This document shows positions 23,146 to 38,768 of a stretch of DNA of 64,000 nt, piece by piece. Where the stretch lies: positions 1 through 64,000 of the forward strand of contig LVBI01000004.1 in assembly GCA_001603145.1 (NCBI GenBank), read 5' to 3'. Each line of letters opens with the position of its first letter. Positions within the stretch are counted from its first letter, which is position 1. The DNA comes from Spirochaetales bacterium Spiro_07 (GTDB lineage Bacteria; Spirochaetota; Spirochaetia; Treponematales; Treponemataceae). The notes under the pieces are model-generated. The model saw only the letters and a list, made by a program, of their open reading frames with translations. It had not been told where the DNA came from and made no database searches. The position numbers were made by a program, and so were the translations under genes.

Positions 23146-23286
23146 AGATAGATACAACCAAATTTAATAACAAGTATCATCACTAAAAGTCTCAATCTTA
23201 TTCATCATTAAGGAGAAAATGCGATGAAGAATTTTACAAAGGTTGTAGGTTTATTATTGGCTCTTACACTTCTTACCGCTTGCGGT
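23138..23286 (+). repeat. Duplicated 5' module, copy A (leader plus signal-peptide code)
   Basis: It aligns without gaps to 24481-24629. The ~86 bases before the ATG differ at about five places and the first ~65 coding bases are identical, including silent positions. The similarity falls away within the poly-Gly code. Confidence 0.85.
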
Positions 23287-24390
23287 GGCGGTGGAGGCGG
23301 CGGCGGCGGCGGTGGAGGAGCTGCAGGTGGTGGTTCTAGTGCTTCTACCGGAAGAAGCACGTATAGCGGAGATTTTTCTGTTGGCGGAAAAAGCTACAAT
23401 ACGTTTGTTATGGACGGAAACGATGAAAGCGGTAAAATAAGCTTGTGTGGGACAAACGGCTTTTTGGACGGAACATACCAAAAACAAGCAACTAATGCAG
23501 CAGCTGCTATAAATGGCACATTTACTATTACATTTGATAATGGTGAAAGCATAACAATCACACTTTCAAGCTCGAATATTTCATTTTCAAGTGGTTCGAT
23601 AGACGCCAGTGGTTCTGCAACAGTAAATGGTGATGTTGTCGTTACGGAATATATAATAGCAACAGCACTCGACAATGGAATTCAATTTATTATACGGAAA
23701 CCTAATCATCCCTCTTATGCTACAGGATTTGGACAAGTTATCATTGAAGCAACTTTTAAAGCAACTCACTATCCTCCGAACAGGGATTATGTAAGTATTC
23801 TTTATCCCTTTGTTGATGCTGGCCAAAAATTCAACTTTTATTATCAGATAGATTCTGCAACATGGAATTCCGAGGCTTGTGTTAATGGAGATATTGAAAT
23901 AACAGCGAGAAATGGTGTGGGTGCAATCGTTCCAAACGGTTTTAATTACGACACAAGTACTGTTGTGTCGTATTCTGGTGGCAGACCTCATGTTAATGTG
24001 ACAGGCGGAACTGTTCCGACTCCATCGTTGCTCCCTCCTGAAATACAGAATCAGTTTTCAGGTGCGCAGAATGCAGGAATTTGGGTCGGTTTTGTAGCAG
24101 CAAAAACTCCCGAATTGGGTTGGAGTGATTGCAAATGGCTTATGGATTATACAGCATCAAATAATACCTATGCTGATATTAATCCTGATTCAAATTGGAT
24201 TAATATGTTTAATGCTAATTATAAAAATGCATATCAGCAAGGATATCAGTATCTTTCTGCATCATATTATTTTAGATGCAGTCTTAATATTCCTAATTAT
24301 GAGGAACCTATATTAGACATACATGGAAATAACTTTTGGGACACTGGTAAGATTACATGTGCTTATCCTGCTTTAGCAGATATACCGTAA
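23224..24390 (+). CDS. Lipoprotein with 12-glycine tether, paralogue A
   Basis: It has 388 residues and AAGGAG upstream. The signal peptide ends in lipobox LTAC; the acylated Cys is followed by 12 glycines and then a Gly/Ser/Ala stretch, an unusually pure flexible tether. The mature domain starts STYSGDFSVGGKSYNTF and is beta-rich with no family I recognise. The next gene is a paralogue with the same architecture. In spirochaetes the residues after the lipid Cys influence final localisation, so the tether may matter for surface display; this is inference. AT-rich codon use differs from the flanking housekeeping genes. Confidence 0.75.
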   Translation: MKNFTKVVGLLLALTLLTACGGGGGGGGGGGGAAGGGSSASTGRSTYSGDFSVGGKSYNTFVMDGNDESGKISLCGTNGFLDGTYQKQATNAAAAINGTFTITFDNGESITITLSSSNISFSSGSIDASGSATVNGDVVVTEYIIATALDNGIQFIIRKPNHPSYATGFGQVIIEATFKATHYPPNRDYVSILYPFVDAGQKFNFYYQIDSATWNSEACVNGDIEITARNGVGAIVPNGFNYDTSTVVSYSGGRPHVNVTGGTVPTPSLLPPEIQNQFSGAQNAGIWVGFVAAKTPELGWSDCKWLMDYTASNNTYADINPDSNWINMFNANYKNAYQQGYQYLSASYYFRCSLNIPNYEEPILDIHGNNFWDTGKITCAYPALADIP

Positions 24391-24409
24391 TTTTATAAAA
24401 ATTTAATAC

Positions 24410-24443
24410 AAGCTGTCCGAAAAAATCACTTTTCGGACAGCTT
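24410..24443 (+). repeat. Strong hairpin between the lipoprotein paralogues
   Basis: A perfect 14-bp stem (AAGCTGTCCGAAAA and complement) with a six-base loop lies 20 bases after the first lipoprotein stop. Only GTCAATAT follows, so termination would be weak; it may be a partial terminator or protect the 3' end. Confidence 0.7.
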
Positions 24444-24480
24444 GTCAATATCAATAATATCGTATTGGTAATAGCAGTAC

Positions 24481-24629
24481 TATCTTGCAAATAGATACAA
24501 CCAAATTTAACAATAAGTACCATCACTAAAAGTCTCAATCTTGTTCATCATTAAGGAGAAAATGCGATGAAGAATTTTACAAAGGTTGTAGGTTTATTAT
24601 TGGCTCTTACACTTCTTACCGCTTGCGGT
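24481..24629 (+). repeat. Duplicated 5' module, copy B
   Basis: This is the second copy of the leader and signal-peptide module described at 23138-23286, lying 1343 bases downstream. The upstream TTGACA of copy A is TTGGTA here, so promoter strength may differ. Confidence 0.85.
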
Positions 24630-25751
24630 GGAGGAGGCGGCGGCGGTGGTGGTGGCAGTTCATCTGGTACAGCCGCAAATGTTAAAAGCACATACACAGG
24701 AAATTTCACTGTCAATGGTCAAAGCTATAATACACTTGTTATGGAAGGTACCACAGAAAGCGGTACTGCAACTTTTGCAGGCAGCAGTGGTTCTTTGACA
24801 GGAAGCTATTCAAAAACAACTTCTGCTTCTGCAATGCATTCCCGTGCAGCTTTTGACGGTTCATATACCATAACATATGATGCTGTTGGCAATGTTGTTA
24901 TGGTTTTTACAGGTGATTCACTTGCTCTTAATGATGGCAGTGGTGCTACTGCAAGTGGTTCAGGAAATGTGAGCACAGACGTTTTTGTTGCTCCTCATGT
25001 AATTGCAACTGCCCAAGCCAATGGGATTCAGTTTGTTGTCTTAAAGCCGACCGACAGTTCGTTTGCAACTGGAATTGAAGAGATTAAAATACAAGATAAC
25101 ACTGACAATTATGTATGGGTACAGATATGGAATCCTGGAAACAGCAGTAGCTATTCATTATTATGGCCTCTTTGTTCGTCAGGGAAAAATTATAAATTTG
25201 AAGTTACTATCAGACCTATGCATACTGACAATGTCCACATGGGAACAAGTTATTTTGAAAATATAGAAATAACAGCAAAAGGTGGTATTGGAAATCTTGA
25301 TTTCAACAAAGTTCCCGGCTTGTTAACTACAACACCAACTCTTGCTTATTCTTCCGGTACTATAACTTTTAACTGCCCTAGTTTTAATATTACACCTGCC
25401 CTTCCTTCTGGAGTCGCTGCCACCCACTCTTATGTGCTGTTTAATTCTCTGGATGATAATACTTTTACTTCCCATATTTCATCTGCACCGGCAAATCCTT
25501 GGAATTCAAAATTCCGTCATATTGGAATGCATCAGTCAACCACAATGGAATTCAACTTTACTCTTACGGAATCAAGTCAATGGGATTATAATCCAATTGA
25601 AAATGCAATACGAGTAATTAGGGATGACGAAGTAAAATTTTTCTTTGGAGGTATAGGCTGCAAGCTAAGTGTTACAGGGGCATCTTCTTCTGCAAACGAT
25701 GTCAGATGGTATTCGAATCCTCTGAGCAGCAATGTTGTAGCTCTGCCGTAA
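24567..25751 (+). CDS. Lipoprotein with ~10-glycine tether, paralogue B
   Basis: It has 394 residues. The first 20 residues (MKNFTKVVGLLLALTLLTAC) are identical to paralogue A at protein and DNA level, then 10 glycines and a Ser-rich spacer. The mature part is recognisably related (STYTGNFTVNGQSYNTLVME; later HVIATAQANGIQFVV against IIATALDNGIQFII) but diverged, most of all in the C-terminal half. No known family is recognised. It was probably made by tandem duplication followed by diversification, with the 5' part kept similar. Confidence 0.75.
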   Translation: MKNFTKVVGLLLALTLLTACGGGGGGGGGGSSSGTAANVKSTYTGNFTVNGQSYNTLVMEGTTESGTATFAGSSGSLTGSYSKTTSASAMHSRAAFDGSYTITYDAVGNVVMVFTGDSLALNDGSGATASGSGNVSTDVFVAPHVIATAQANGIQFVVLKPTDSSFATGIEEIKIQDNTDNYVWVQIWNPGNSSSYSLLWPLCSSGKNYKFEVTIRPMHTDNVHMGTSYFENIEITAKGGIGNLDFNKVPGLLTTTPTLAYSSGTITFNCPSFNITPALPSGVAATHSYVLFNSLDDNTFTSHISSAPANPWNSKFRHIGMHQSTTMEFNFTLTESSQWDYNPIENAIRVIRDDEVKFFFGGIGCKLSVTGASSSANDVRWYSNPLSSNVVALP

Positions 25752-35552: not shown

Positions 35553-35570
35553 ATCAGCACAAGCTGAAAA

Positions 35571-35612
35571 AAGGCTGCCGGAAACTTCAAGTTTCTGGGC
35601 AGCCTTTTTTTA
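35571..35612 (+). terminator. Rho-independent terminator after serA
   Basis: Stem AAGGCTGCC/GGCAGCCTT (35571-35579, 35598-35606) with an inner GAAAC/GTTTC extension and a T-run. The outer stem is the same as in the terminator after the GH13 gene at 59.5 kb. Confidence 0.9.
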
Positions 35613-35705
35613 TTACTTGTTCCGAAACCGAATAATCTAACACCGATTACAGAACGTTCTCGCGCACTAATTACAAATCTTCTAGCAAACTCATATAAGA
35701 ATTAT

Positions 35706-36062
35706 TTATAAATTTGTTATTTCCCATTTATCAAGCAATTTATTCATAGATTTTCGAAAATCAGAAATCAACTGTTCTTGAATTTTTAAACGGATTTTTA
35801 TGTTTTCATCAATTTCATCAATTTTTATATTACTCAAATCATGAGGGATAAATAATTGATATACTTCTATTTCCAAAGCCTCTGCTATTTTGATTAGTGT
35901 TGATTCTCGTGGCCAACGACGTTTGCCTTCAATATCGTTGATATTCTGTACAGATACACCGATTTTTTCAGCAAGTTGTTCTTGAGTAAATTTCCCTTTG
36001 CGATATTTCTTTATGTTTTGAGAAAGGGTTTCATGTAGTTGTTGTTCTGTCATTACTTGCAT
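35706..36062 (-). CDS. XRE-family regulator (XRE2)
   Basis: Start candidates are ATG 36062 (MQVMTEQQL) and 36053; the track start is far upstream. The protein has ~118 residues with XRE helix-turn-helix (TQEQLAEKIGVSVQNINDIEG) and a charged helical C-terminus. It is a paralogue of XRE1 at 22654. It is divergent from three small genes and faces a perfect ACTTGCA-ATA-TGCAAGT palindrome in their promoter. The sequence is AT-rich compared with neighbouring serA. Confidence 0.88.
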   Translation of the reverse strand: MQVMTEQQLHETLSQNIKKYRKGKFTQEQLAEKIGVSVQNINDIEGKRRWPRESTLIKIAEALEIEVYQLFIPHDLSNIKIDEIDENIKIRLKIQEQLISDFRKSMNKLLDKWEITNL

Positions 36063-36090
36063 TTTGATAGTATTTATTAAATTTTTACAC

Positions 36091-36134
36091 TTGCGTTTAG
36101 CGGAATGGTGAGTTATACTTGCAATATGCAAGTA
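36091..36134 (+). promoter_or_regulatory. Promoter with XRE2-type operator
   Basis: TTGCGT (36091-36096), 17-base spacer, TATACT (36114-36119). The palindrome TACTTGCA-ATA-TGCAAGTA (36116-36134) covers the -10 and the expected start site, a repressor position. A further TTACTTGCA half-site overlaps the XRE2 start codons at 36053-36062. Confidence 0.7.
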
Positions 36135-36157
36135 ATAATAAACCAAAGGAGTTGTGT

Positions 36158-36310
36158 ATGAAAAAATTTAAAATTATTTATGTACAGGAAAGTGGAATTC
36201 AAGGTTCTATAGTTCTTCAGGCAAACTCGAAAGCTGAAGCAAAAGGAAAATGGTTGCTACAACAAGGTTCACATTCAAAAAGGAAAATTGTTCAAGTTTA
36301 TGAAGTGTAG
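36158..36310 (+). CDS. 50-residue protein of unknown function, first gene of the XRE2 cassette
   Basis: The ATG at 36158 has AGGAG upstream; the track start is earlier and inside the operator. The product is MKKFKIIYVQES... with strand-helix-strand character and a basic C-terminal half (SHSKRKIVQVYEV). No family is recognised. Its stop overlaps the next gene by 11 bases, a sign of translational coupling. The good ribosome-binding site, the operator and the overlap support it as a real gene despite its size. Confidence 0.65.
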   Translation: MKKFKIIYVQESGIQGSIVLQANSKAEAKGKWLLQQGSHSKRKIVQVYEV

Positions 36311-36533
36311 ATTTTGTGGTGAAGAATTAAAAACTGGAAGTGATAAATGTCTTTGGGGGCGTTACGGAAAACTTTGCAAAACAAGCATAACAAAAATGCA
36401 TGTAGCAATTACGGATGGTAATAGTTGTATTTATTGTGGTGAAGCTGTAAAGACAACTAGCAGTAACGCACTTTGGACACGCTCAGGTCCTTCTTGCCGC
36501 AATTCACCTACAGGACAACACTGCTTGCAGTAG
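36300..36533 (+). CDS. Small protein with two tandem CxxC zinc-ribbon-like modules
   Basis: The ATG at 36300 (MKCRFCGEELKTG) gives 77 residues. Two related modules of ~36 residues are visible: CRFCGE..KT.S...LWGRYGKLC and CIYCGE.VKT.SSNALWTRSGPSC, each with CxxCGE, a central LWxR and a closing Cys; the second ends with an additional HC. Each module has three conserved Cys plus nearby His or Cys to complete a metal site. An internal duplication is clear. Function is unknown; zinc-dependent nucleic-acid or protein binding is plausible. Confidence 0.7.
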   Translation: MKCRFCGEELKTGSDKCLWGRYGKLCKTSITKMHVAITDGNSCIYCGEAVKTTSSNALWTRSGPSCRNSPTGQHCLQ

Positions 36534-36570
36534 ATCTCAATAAAAGAGATAGATTAAAGAGGTATTTTAT

Positions 36571-36777
36571 ATGACAAGAGAAGAATTTGAAGAAAAAAGA
36601 GATAATTTTAACTCACAAAGGAATGATTATTTAGAAAAACAGAATGAGAGGGATATTGTATACAAACAAAAAGTTAAAGCCGGGAATGCTTCTGGTTTGG
36701 ATAAATTTCTTCATGTATTGGGATCGATTGTTAAGTCTATGAGTGATTCTATGGCTGACAGAGTCAACAAAATGTAA
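36571..36777 (+). CDS. 68-residue charged helical protein, third gene of the XRE2 cassette
   Basis: It has GAGG eight bases before the ATG. The first ~40 residues are highly charged and helical (REEFEEKRDNFNSQRNDYLEKQ), probably coiled coil; the last ~25 are amphipathic (FLHVLGSIVKSMSDSMADRV). No family is recognised. It follows the zinc-ribbon gene by 37 bases and precedes a terminator, so it closes the cassette. Confidence 0.6.
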   Translation: MTREEFEEKRDNFNSQRNDYLEKQNERDIVYKQKVKAGNASGLDKFLHVLGSIVKSMSDSMADRVNKM

Positions 36778-36862
36778 AGTTCGCAACTGGGGATTATTTA
36801 TATATCAATTGCATGATTTTGTTGAAATTGTTCTCCAGCTGTTTTTGTAGAAGATTTAAAAC

Positions 36863-36907
36863 GAAAAAGCACGCCCGAAGCAGTCGGCTTCAATGGCGTG
36901 CTTTTTT
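36863..36907. terminator. Bidirectional rho-independent terminator
   Basis: Stem GCACGCC/GGCGTGC (36868-36874, 36894-36900) with five As before and seven Ts after serves the convergent XRE2 cassette and CPBP protease gene. Confidence 0.88.
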
Positions 36908-36963
36908 TATGCCGTTTTTAGCTGTCGGTCAAAGCAGGTGCGTCATCATGACGTTTTGGAAAA

Positions 36964-37880: not shown

Positions 37881-38768
37881 CTACTTAAGGCTTGCTCTTG
37901 AAAGCGGTGAACCAATCCACACGCCTTCGCTGCCAAGATAGTCTTGCTTCATGCCTTCAATGAGAAACTGAACGCTGTCTACAGAGTCAAACGAGGTTGC
38001 AGTGTACACAATCTGAATCAGCTGGCCGAAATAGCCCTCAACGCCGTATTTGTTCCATTGAAAAGCGTCATTGAAATTAAGATATGCAACTTTGTTCTTT
38101 ATGCTTGCTGAAAGCAGCGTCGAGCCTTCCGGGATGAGCGAAATGTAGCCTTTTGACTCTTCTTCTGTGCTTGTGCCTGCAAGCAGCGTCTGCAATGTTG
38201 CTGTAAGCGGCGAGCTTGTTGCCGGAATTGAGCGGTGGGTTTCTTTGCGGATAAGATTGCCGGTGGCGTCGATGTACATAAAATAAAGCGAATAATCCCG
38301 CATTTCGGTGCGGGCCGGTTCAGGCTTGTCTGAATCTTTTGTTTCTGGCTCTGCAACGTTCTCTTCCGGCTGAAGCGGAAGCTTGTTATCGGTTCTTGCG
38401 GCTATGTCCGGCACATCAGGCTGAAACGCGGGTGCAATTGTGTTCGCGTCTTCGTTGCCGGTTGATTCTGAAACTGTGGTAATGTCAATCGAAAAGTTGT
38501 TTTCTTCCGGCTGAAGCGGCCGCGTAACGTTTTCTGATGCAACCGGCTCCTGCACTGCAAAGTCGATTTCGTTTTTTACTTCAACTTCTTTGGTTTCTTC
38601 CGGTTTTTTGGCTGTTTCTTTTTCGGGTCTGCCGAACACAGATTCAACAAAATGTGTTTCTTCGAGAACTTCTTTAATGCGGTTAAGGTTCATCGCGAAA
38701 ACTGAAAGAATTATTGCGCCAAAAACAACGCAGAACAACGCGACGGATGAATTATTTTTATCAGACAT
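37881..38768 (-). CDS. Membrane-anchored GerMN-domain protein
   Basis: The ATG at 38768 (MSDKNNSSVAL) is preferred because a consensus TATAAT (38784-38779, minus) ends ten bases before it; the track start would lie upstream of that promoter. One N-terminal membrane helix is followed by a long acidic Pro/Glu-rich linker with repeated LQPEEN segments (three copies, near residues 85, 130 and 150), and a C-terminal GerMN domain (YIDATGNLIRKETHRSI, TLQTLLAGTSTEEE, SIKNKVAYLNFNDAF). GerMN domains occur in envelope proteins outside sporulation. It probably acts in the periplasm. Confidence 0.83.
   Translation of the reverse strand: MSDKNNSSVALFCVVFGAIILSVFAMNLNRIKEVLEETHFVESVFGRPEKETAKKPEETKEVEVKNEIDFAVQEPVASENVTRPLQPEENNFSIDITTVSESTGNEDANTIAPAFQPDVPDIAARTDNKLPLQPEENVAEPETKDSDKPEPARTEMRDYSLYFMYIDATGNLIRKETHRSIPATSSPLTATLQTLLAGTSTEEESKGYISLIPEGSTLLSASIKNKVAYLNFNDAFQWNKYGVEGYFGQLIQIVYTATSFDSVDSVQFLIEGMKQDYLGSEGVWIGSPLSRASLK

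Follow-up and report, generated by a model that had tools for sequence, protein, structure and literature searches.

What is a 1.29-kb AT-rich block, in which an XRE repressor gene diverges from three short genes (encoding 50, 77 and 68 aa), doing between serA and a CPBP gene of a spirochaete? The locus lies in a 64,000-nucleotide stretch of Spirochaetales bacterium Spiro_07 DNA, the whole of which is called the window here. A four-gene AT-rich unit had been noticed at this position from the letters alone, and ORF positions and GC content (28-37% in the cassette vs 44-51% in serA) agree with that description. In the relative G003, serA (95% identical over 483 bases) runs straight into sequence matching window positions 36858-36917, and the intervening block is therefore an insertion (Table 1). 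The cassette is acquired DNA. The same comparison overturns the "shared terminator" that had been assigned to the small genes. Since G003, which has no cassette, carries this terminator after serA, the element now closing the cassette is serA's own ancestral one.

Table 1. Coordinates of the cassette and its elements in the window.
Feature	Position	Strand	Evidence or remark
Terminator, now immediately 3' of serA	35567..35610	+	Inverted repeats I2 and I3
Inserted block	35571..36857	n/a	No counterpart at serA flank of relative G003
XRE (Cro/C1-type HTH) repressor, 115-118 aa	35706..36062	-	Pfam HTH_3 5.3e-13; 98/118 aa identical in L051 cassette
Second operator-like site, palindrome with 2 mismatches, over XRE start	36054..36072	.	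Palindrome scan
Probable promoter, TTGCGT (36091-36096), 17-nt spacer, TATACT (36114-36119)	36091..36119	+	Weak match; inferred from sequence only
Operator, perfect 8+3+8 inverted repeat TACTTGCA-ATA-TGCAAGTA	36116..36134	.	Overlaps probable -10 box
50-aa leader protein, predicted beta-beta-alpha-beta fold	36158..36310	+	Structure model mean pLDDT 89.8
77-aa double CCCH zinc-finger protein	36300..36533	+	ATG overlaps end of 50-aa gene by 11 bases (36300-36310)
68-aa protein, charged N-terminal part, amphipathic C-terminal stretch	36571..36777	+	Relatives in L012 and L125
Terminator, now cassette end	36864..36906	+	12-bp perfect stem; equivalent position after serA in G003

The divergent gene encodes an HTH_3 protein well above the curated Pfam cut-off (49.2 bits vs 23). 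Read from its stop at 35706, a conserved start (MQVM, 36062) yields 118 aa and an alternative start at 36053 yields 115 aa. A repressor-type operator over the promoter had been described there, and as a sequence feature it is present: the perfect palindrome covers part of the probable -10 box, in a promoter that a 9-of-12 consensus scan does not recover. Operator-like sites with at most three mismatches number four in the window vs 0.51 expected, a count reached in no shuffle. The closest comparison is with a cassette from an uncultured Treponema (L051/L081, a single contig, CAMGTC010000071.1), in which the XRE gene, the operator, the 50-aa gene, the zinc finger and the 11-base overlap are all kept. 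It differs from the window cassette in genus, locus and last gene, which encodes a 380-aa ankyrin-SHOCT protein in place of the 68-aa one. Between the two, 18 of the 19 operator bases are identical and lie within a 22-base identical run, the final base of the operator being different; one half of the second operator-like site is also kept, though it is partly coding. The XRE gene itself is under purifying selection (dN/dS 0.105). This anatomy, together with operator conservation, suggests that XRE represses via the palindrome. Bound there, it would keep the operon, and probably its own gene, nearly silent; once the repressor lets go (phage entry or another stress would be a guess at the signal), the three small proteins would be made together.

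A repressor facing its operator and a set of short genes is equally the layout of a phage immunity region, and the cassette may be a remnant of one, in which the repressor and early genes of a prophage or satellite have persisted. The XRE protein is similar to phage repressors (phrog_8, 5.3e-14), and the first of the small proteins adds a structural hint. Its predicted model resembles many phage proteins of 50-60 aa in fold; T7 Gp2 and two proteins annotated as RNA polymerase inhibitors are among the phage proteins close to it. The nearest folds found by Foldseek are L20a-type ribosomal proteins, YkzG (RNA polymerase epsilon), T7 Gp2 chains and phage proteins, all at E > 0.001. For T7 Gp2 and YkzG the likeness is one of predicted fold, with query-normalised TM scores of 0.78 and 0.71, set against E values of 0.26 and 0.15 and equally good matches to L20a-type ribosomal proteins. 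By hhalign, the probability of a match to T7 Gp2 is 0.25%, i.e., there is no sequence relation; the protein has no Pfam match either, and so no sequence-family membership in T7 Gp2 or RNA polymerase epsilon.

Other observations argue against a phage remnant. The insert carries no integrase or other phage gene, the partners of related operons are of cellular type, and neither the window zinc finger nor a related query has a sequence relative in phage, plasmid or viral-contig collections. The phage derivation first suggested for the cassette thus retains a hint from the 50-aa fold and loses the finger, and overall such an origin appears unlikely. Compact three-unit CCCH fingers do adjoin phage-like genes at two loci, one in genome G088 (L090) and one on a viral contig (L087:6001-6255), which counts in favour of a phage origin. 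Used as a query, the G088 form had no match in phages or plasmids and matched one viral contig at 100% identity.

The family of the 50-aa protein is present in 24 of 274 Treponemataceae genomes, and the gene is usually the first one opposite a divergent XRE gene. This arrangement was found in 13 of the 17 copies examined, with the near end of the XRE gene at most about 180 bases upstream, a count in which several of the XRE proteins had been used in building the model. Among the 14 strongest copies, nine have a zinc-finger gene no more than 5.6 kb away. Compared with L051, 31 of 50 residues are identical and dN/dS is about 1.05 over few sites, indicating no constraint in that comparison, though the family is conserved.

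The zinc-finger protein is the more widespread component, occurring in 38 of the 274 Treponemataceae genomes, and more distant, compact versions of it are present in other parts of the phylum; for both families the search of other genomes thus revealed conservation. The protein had been called a double zinc ribbon. The duplication is real, and the classical four-Cys ribbon is not: each unit, present twice, follows the pattern C-x2-C...C-x7-H, with three Cys and one His. All eight ligands are invariant across 20 aligned relatives, and comparison with L051 (62/77 residues identical, 81%) gives a dN/dS of 0.234, again indicative of purifying selection. Such selection on coding sequence bears indirectly on whether the genes are translated. 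The overlap with the preceding gene is exactly of the 11 bases first reported, and the zinc protein would be made through translational coupling to the 50-aa protein. No meaningful match was found for the finger in Pfam, NCBIfam, PHROGs or PADLOC and none among PDB sequences, and a Foldseek search with its model returned nothing significant. All three target proteins are absent by sequence from these same libraries, in keeping with the original impression that they stand outside recognised families.

The genome of the window bacterium contains two further finger copies, in one of which TGA replaces an invariant Cys. Selenocysteine at this codon was considered and rejected, as no SelB match exceeded the family cut-off in a genome that is 85% complete; a pseudogene or sequence error is the probable cause. 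This third copy (L009:6680-6904, contig C26) has a TerB-like gene in its vicinity, as well as an AAA gene of IetA-like type. In oral-type treponemes the finger stands alone, adjoining housekeeping genes; among the loci with a solitary finger (L013, L041-L044), several place it next to truB, rbfA and infB.

As to the last gene of the cassette, strong relatives of the 68-aa protein occur only in G003 and G082 among the 145 genomes searched, and at another locus (L127) a similar 63-aa gene comes after a leader gene. Residues 42-59 have a hydrophobic moment of 0.55, and on this calculation the protein is proposed to act at the membrane. An amphipathic end of this kind would also suit a toxin, which raises the question of whether the cassette is a toxin-antitoxin module, with XRE as its antitoxin and a toxin among the small proteins. 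XRE proteins are frequent among antitoxins, and apart from generic HTH matches the repressor has a weak match to couple_hipB (34 bits, cut-off 71.65). Type II modules with XRE antitoxins share with the cassette an XRE regulator and small partners; they differ from it in that here the regulator is divergent instead of co-operonic, the partners are exchanged between loci, and a toxin family is absent. The conserved parts are the 50-aa fold and the zinc finger, neither a known toxin, and beyond generic HTH no toxin or antitoxin family exceeds the cut-offs of Pfam, NCBIfam or PADLOC. The toxin-antitoxin-like role once considered therefore finds no family above cut-off to attach to, its partners vary by locus, and a module of this type is quite improbable.

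Around the zinc finger, partners change from locus to locus. DUF1232 occurs near 8 of the 38 finger loci; other partners include TerB, dynamin-type GTPase, AAA, DUF697 GTPase and ankyrin proteins, with SHOCT in two loci. Proteins of the TerB and DUF1232 types, a CxxCxxCC chelating domain at one locus (L057) and the zinc finger itself could belong to an operon for stress or metal response that has nothing to do with phages, in which these partners serve in envelope or metal stress. Such an operon is difficult to reconcile with the patchy distribution and the location at a variable site, and the window cassette has no metal transporter or sensor, making this explanation doubtful. The best reading is that the window cassette is the smallest member found so far of a modular XRE-controlled operon family in Treponemataceae, undescribed relative to the libraries searched. 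The set proposed to define this family, namely a divergent XRE gene with a 50-aa leader and a double CCCH finger, occurs together in the window cassette, and reading the locus as a repressor-controlled unit of small genes fits its sequence. Literature on DUF1232/TerB/XRE operons and on Treponema zinc-finger operons did not yield the architecture of these operons.

A use for such operons is suggested mainly by the site of insertion. The serA flank is a variable site that in sibling genomes holds restriction or defence-candidate genes. In G001, an XRE gene, an EcoRI-type methylase and a GmrSD_N-HNH nuclease lie 3' of serA (L143), probably forming a restriction-modification set. The same flank in G006 holds a DUF3990 gene matching PDC-M13B, and in G005 serA is followed by the counterpart of the window gene at 37881. 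That siblings use this site for restriction-modification or defence-candidate genes makes a role against phages plausible.

Defence profiles from PADLOC contribute less. The cassette proteins have no specific defence-model match, XRE matching generic HTH models and the other three nothing significant. Operon neighbours of zinc-finger relatives do match candidate families, among them PDC-M40B (2e-44), PDC-M09A (2.4e-27) and PDC-M72A; these families are absent from the window cassette, and neither the finger nor the 50-aa protein is in PADLOC. In a control at 1e-10, covering 71 operon neighbours, 71 flanking genes of those loci and 37 window genes as housekeeping background, PADLOC matches failed to separate the operons from either comparison set. 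Among the families listed, the background included DpdF, PycC and LeoA, matched through shared folds by genes that are probably those of RecQ, of a cyclase and of Der, and the flanks included MTase, AbiQ and PDC-M13. Enrichment was consequently dropped as support for defence beyond the specific PDC matches, and the match between the dynamin-type partner and LeoA was discounted because a window housekeeping gene, probably a Der-like GTPase, matches LeoA too. PDC names among the families listed fell mostly to the operon neighbours (M72A twice, S01, M40B, M09A and S29), with M13 alone in the flanks and none in the background, a pattern that leans toward defence in small numbers and is suggestive only. 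It is thus mainly the insertion site that speaks for action against phages. The defence connection proposed at the outset is thus plausible from that site and from some operon neighbours, and the PADLOC control did not add to it.

Taken as a whole, the locus is best explained as a modular XRE operon, a reading to which we would give an even chance of being correct. Two of its parts recur: the 50-aa leader, which probably binds or regulates, and the double CCCH finger, probably an adaptor. The last gene is its exchangeable part, represented by the 68-aa protein here and by ankyrin-SHOCT in the closest relative. Points against this reading are the solitary finger of oral-type treponemes, the PADLOC control, the two strong relatives of the 68-aa protein and the dN/dS of the 50-aa gene. 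Action against phages or other mobile DNA is the most likely use, tentatively put at somewhat less than an even chance. A more specific version, in which a phage-inducible class of modular defence operons combines a Gp2-fold leader acting on RNA polymerase with a double CCCH adaptor and an exchangeable effector, is speculative and probably incorrect. Three proteins without a family now have a place in an operon architecture that recurs, has named members and includes both a conserved operator and an exchangeable part. Should these operons work against phages, a compact and minimal case would be available in Treponema; otherwise, annotation models are still needed for the families of the zinc finger and the leader.

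Elsewhere in the window, positions 23224-25751 encode a pair of paralogous lipoproteins; close to the N-terminus both have long runs of glycine, specified by mixed GGN codons and not by a homopolymer tract.
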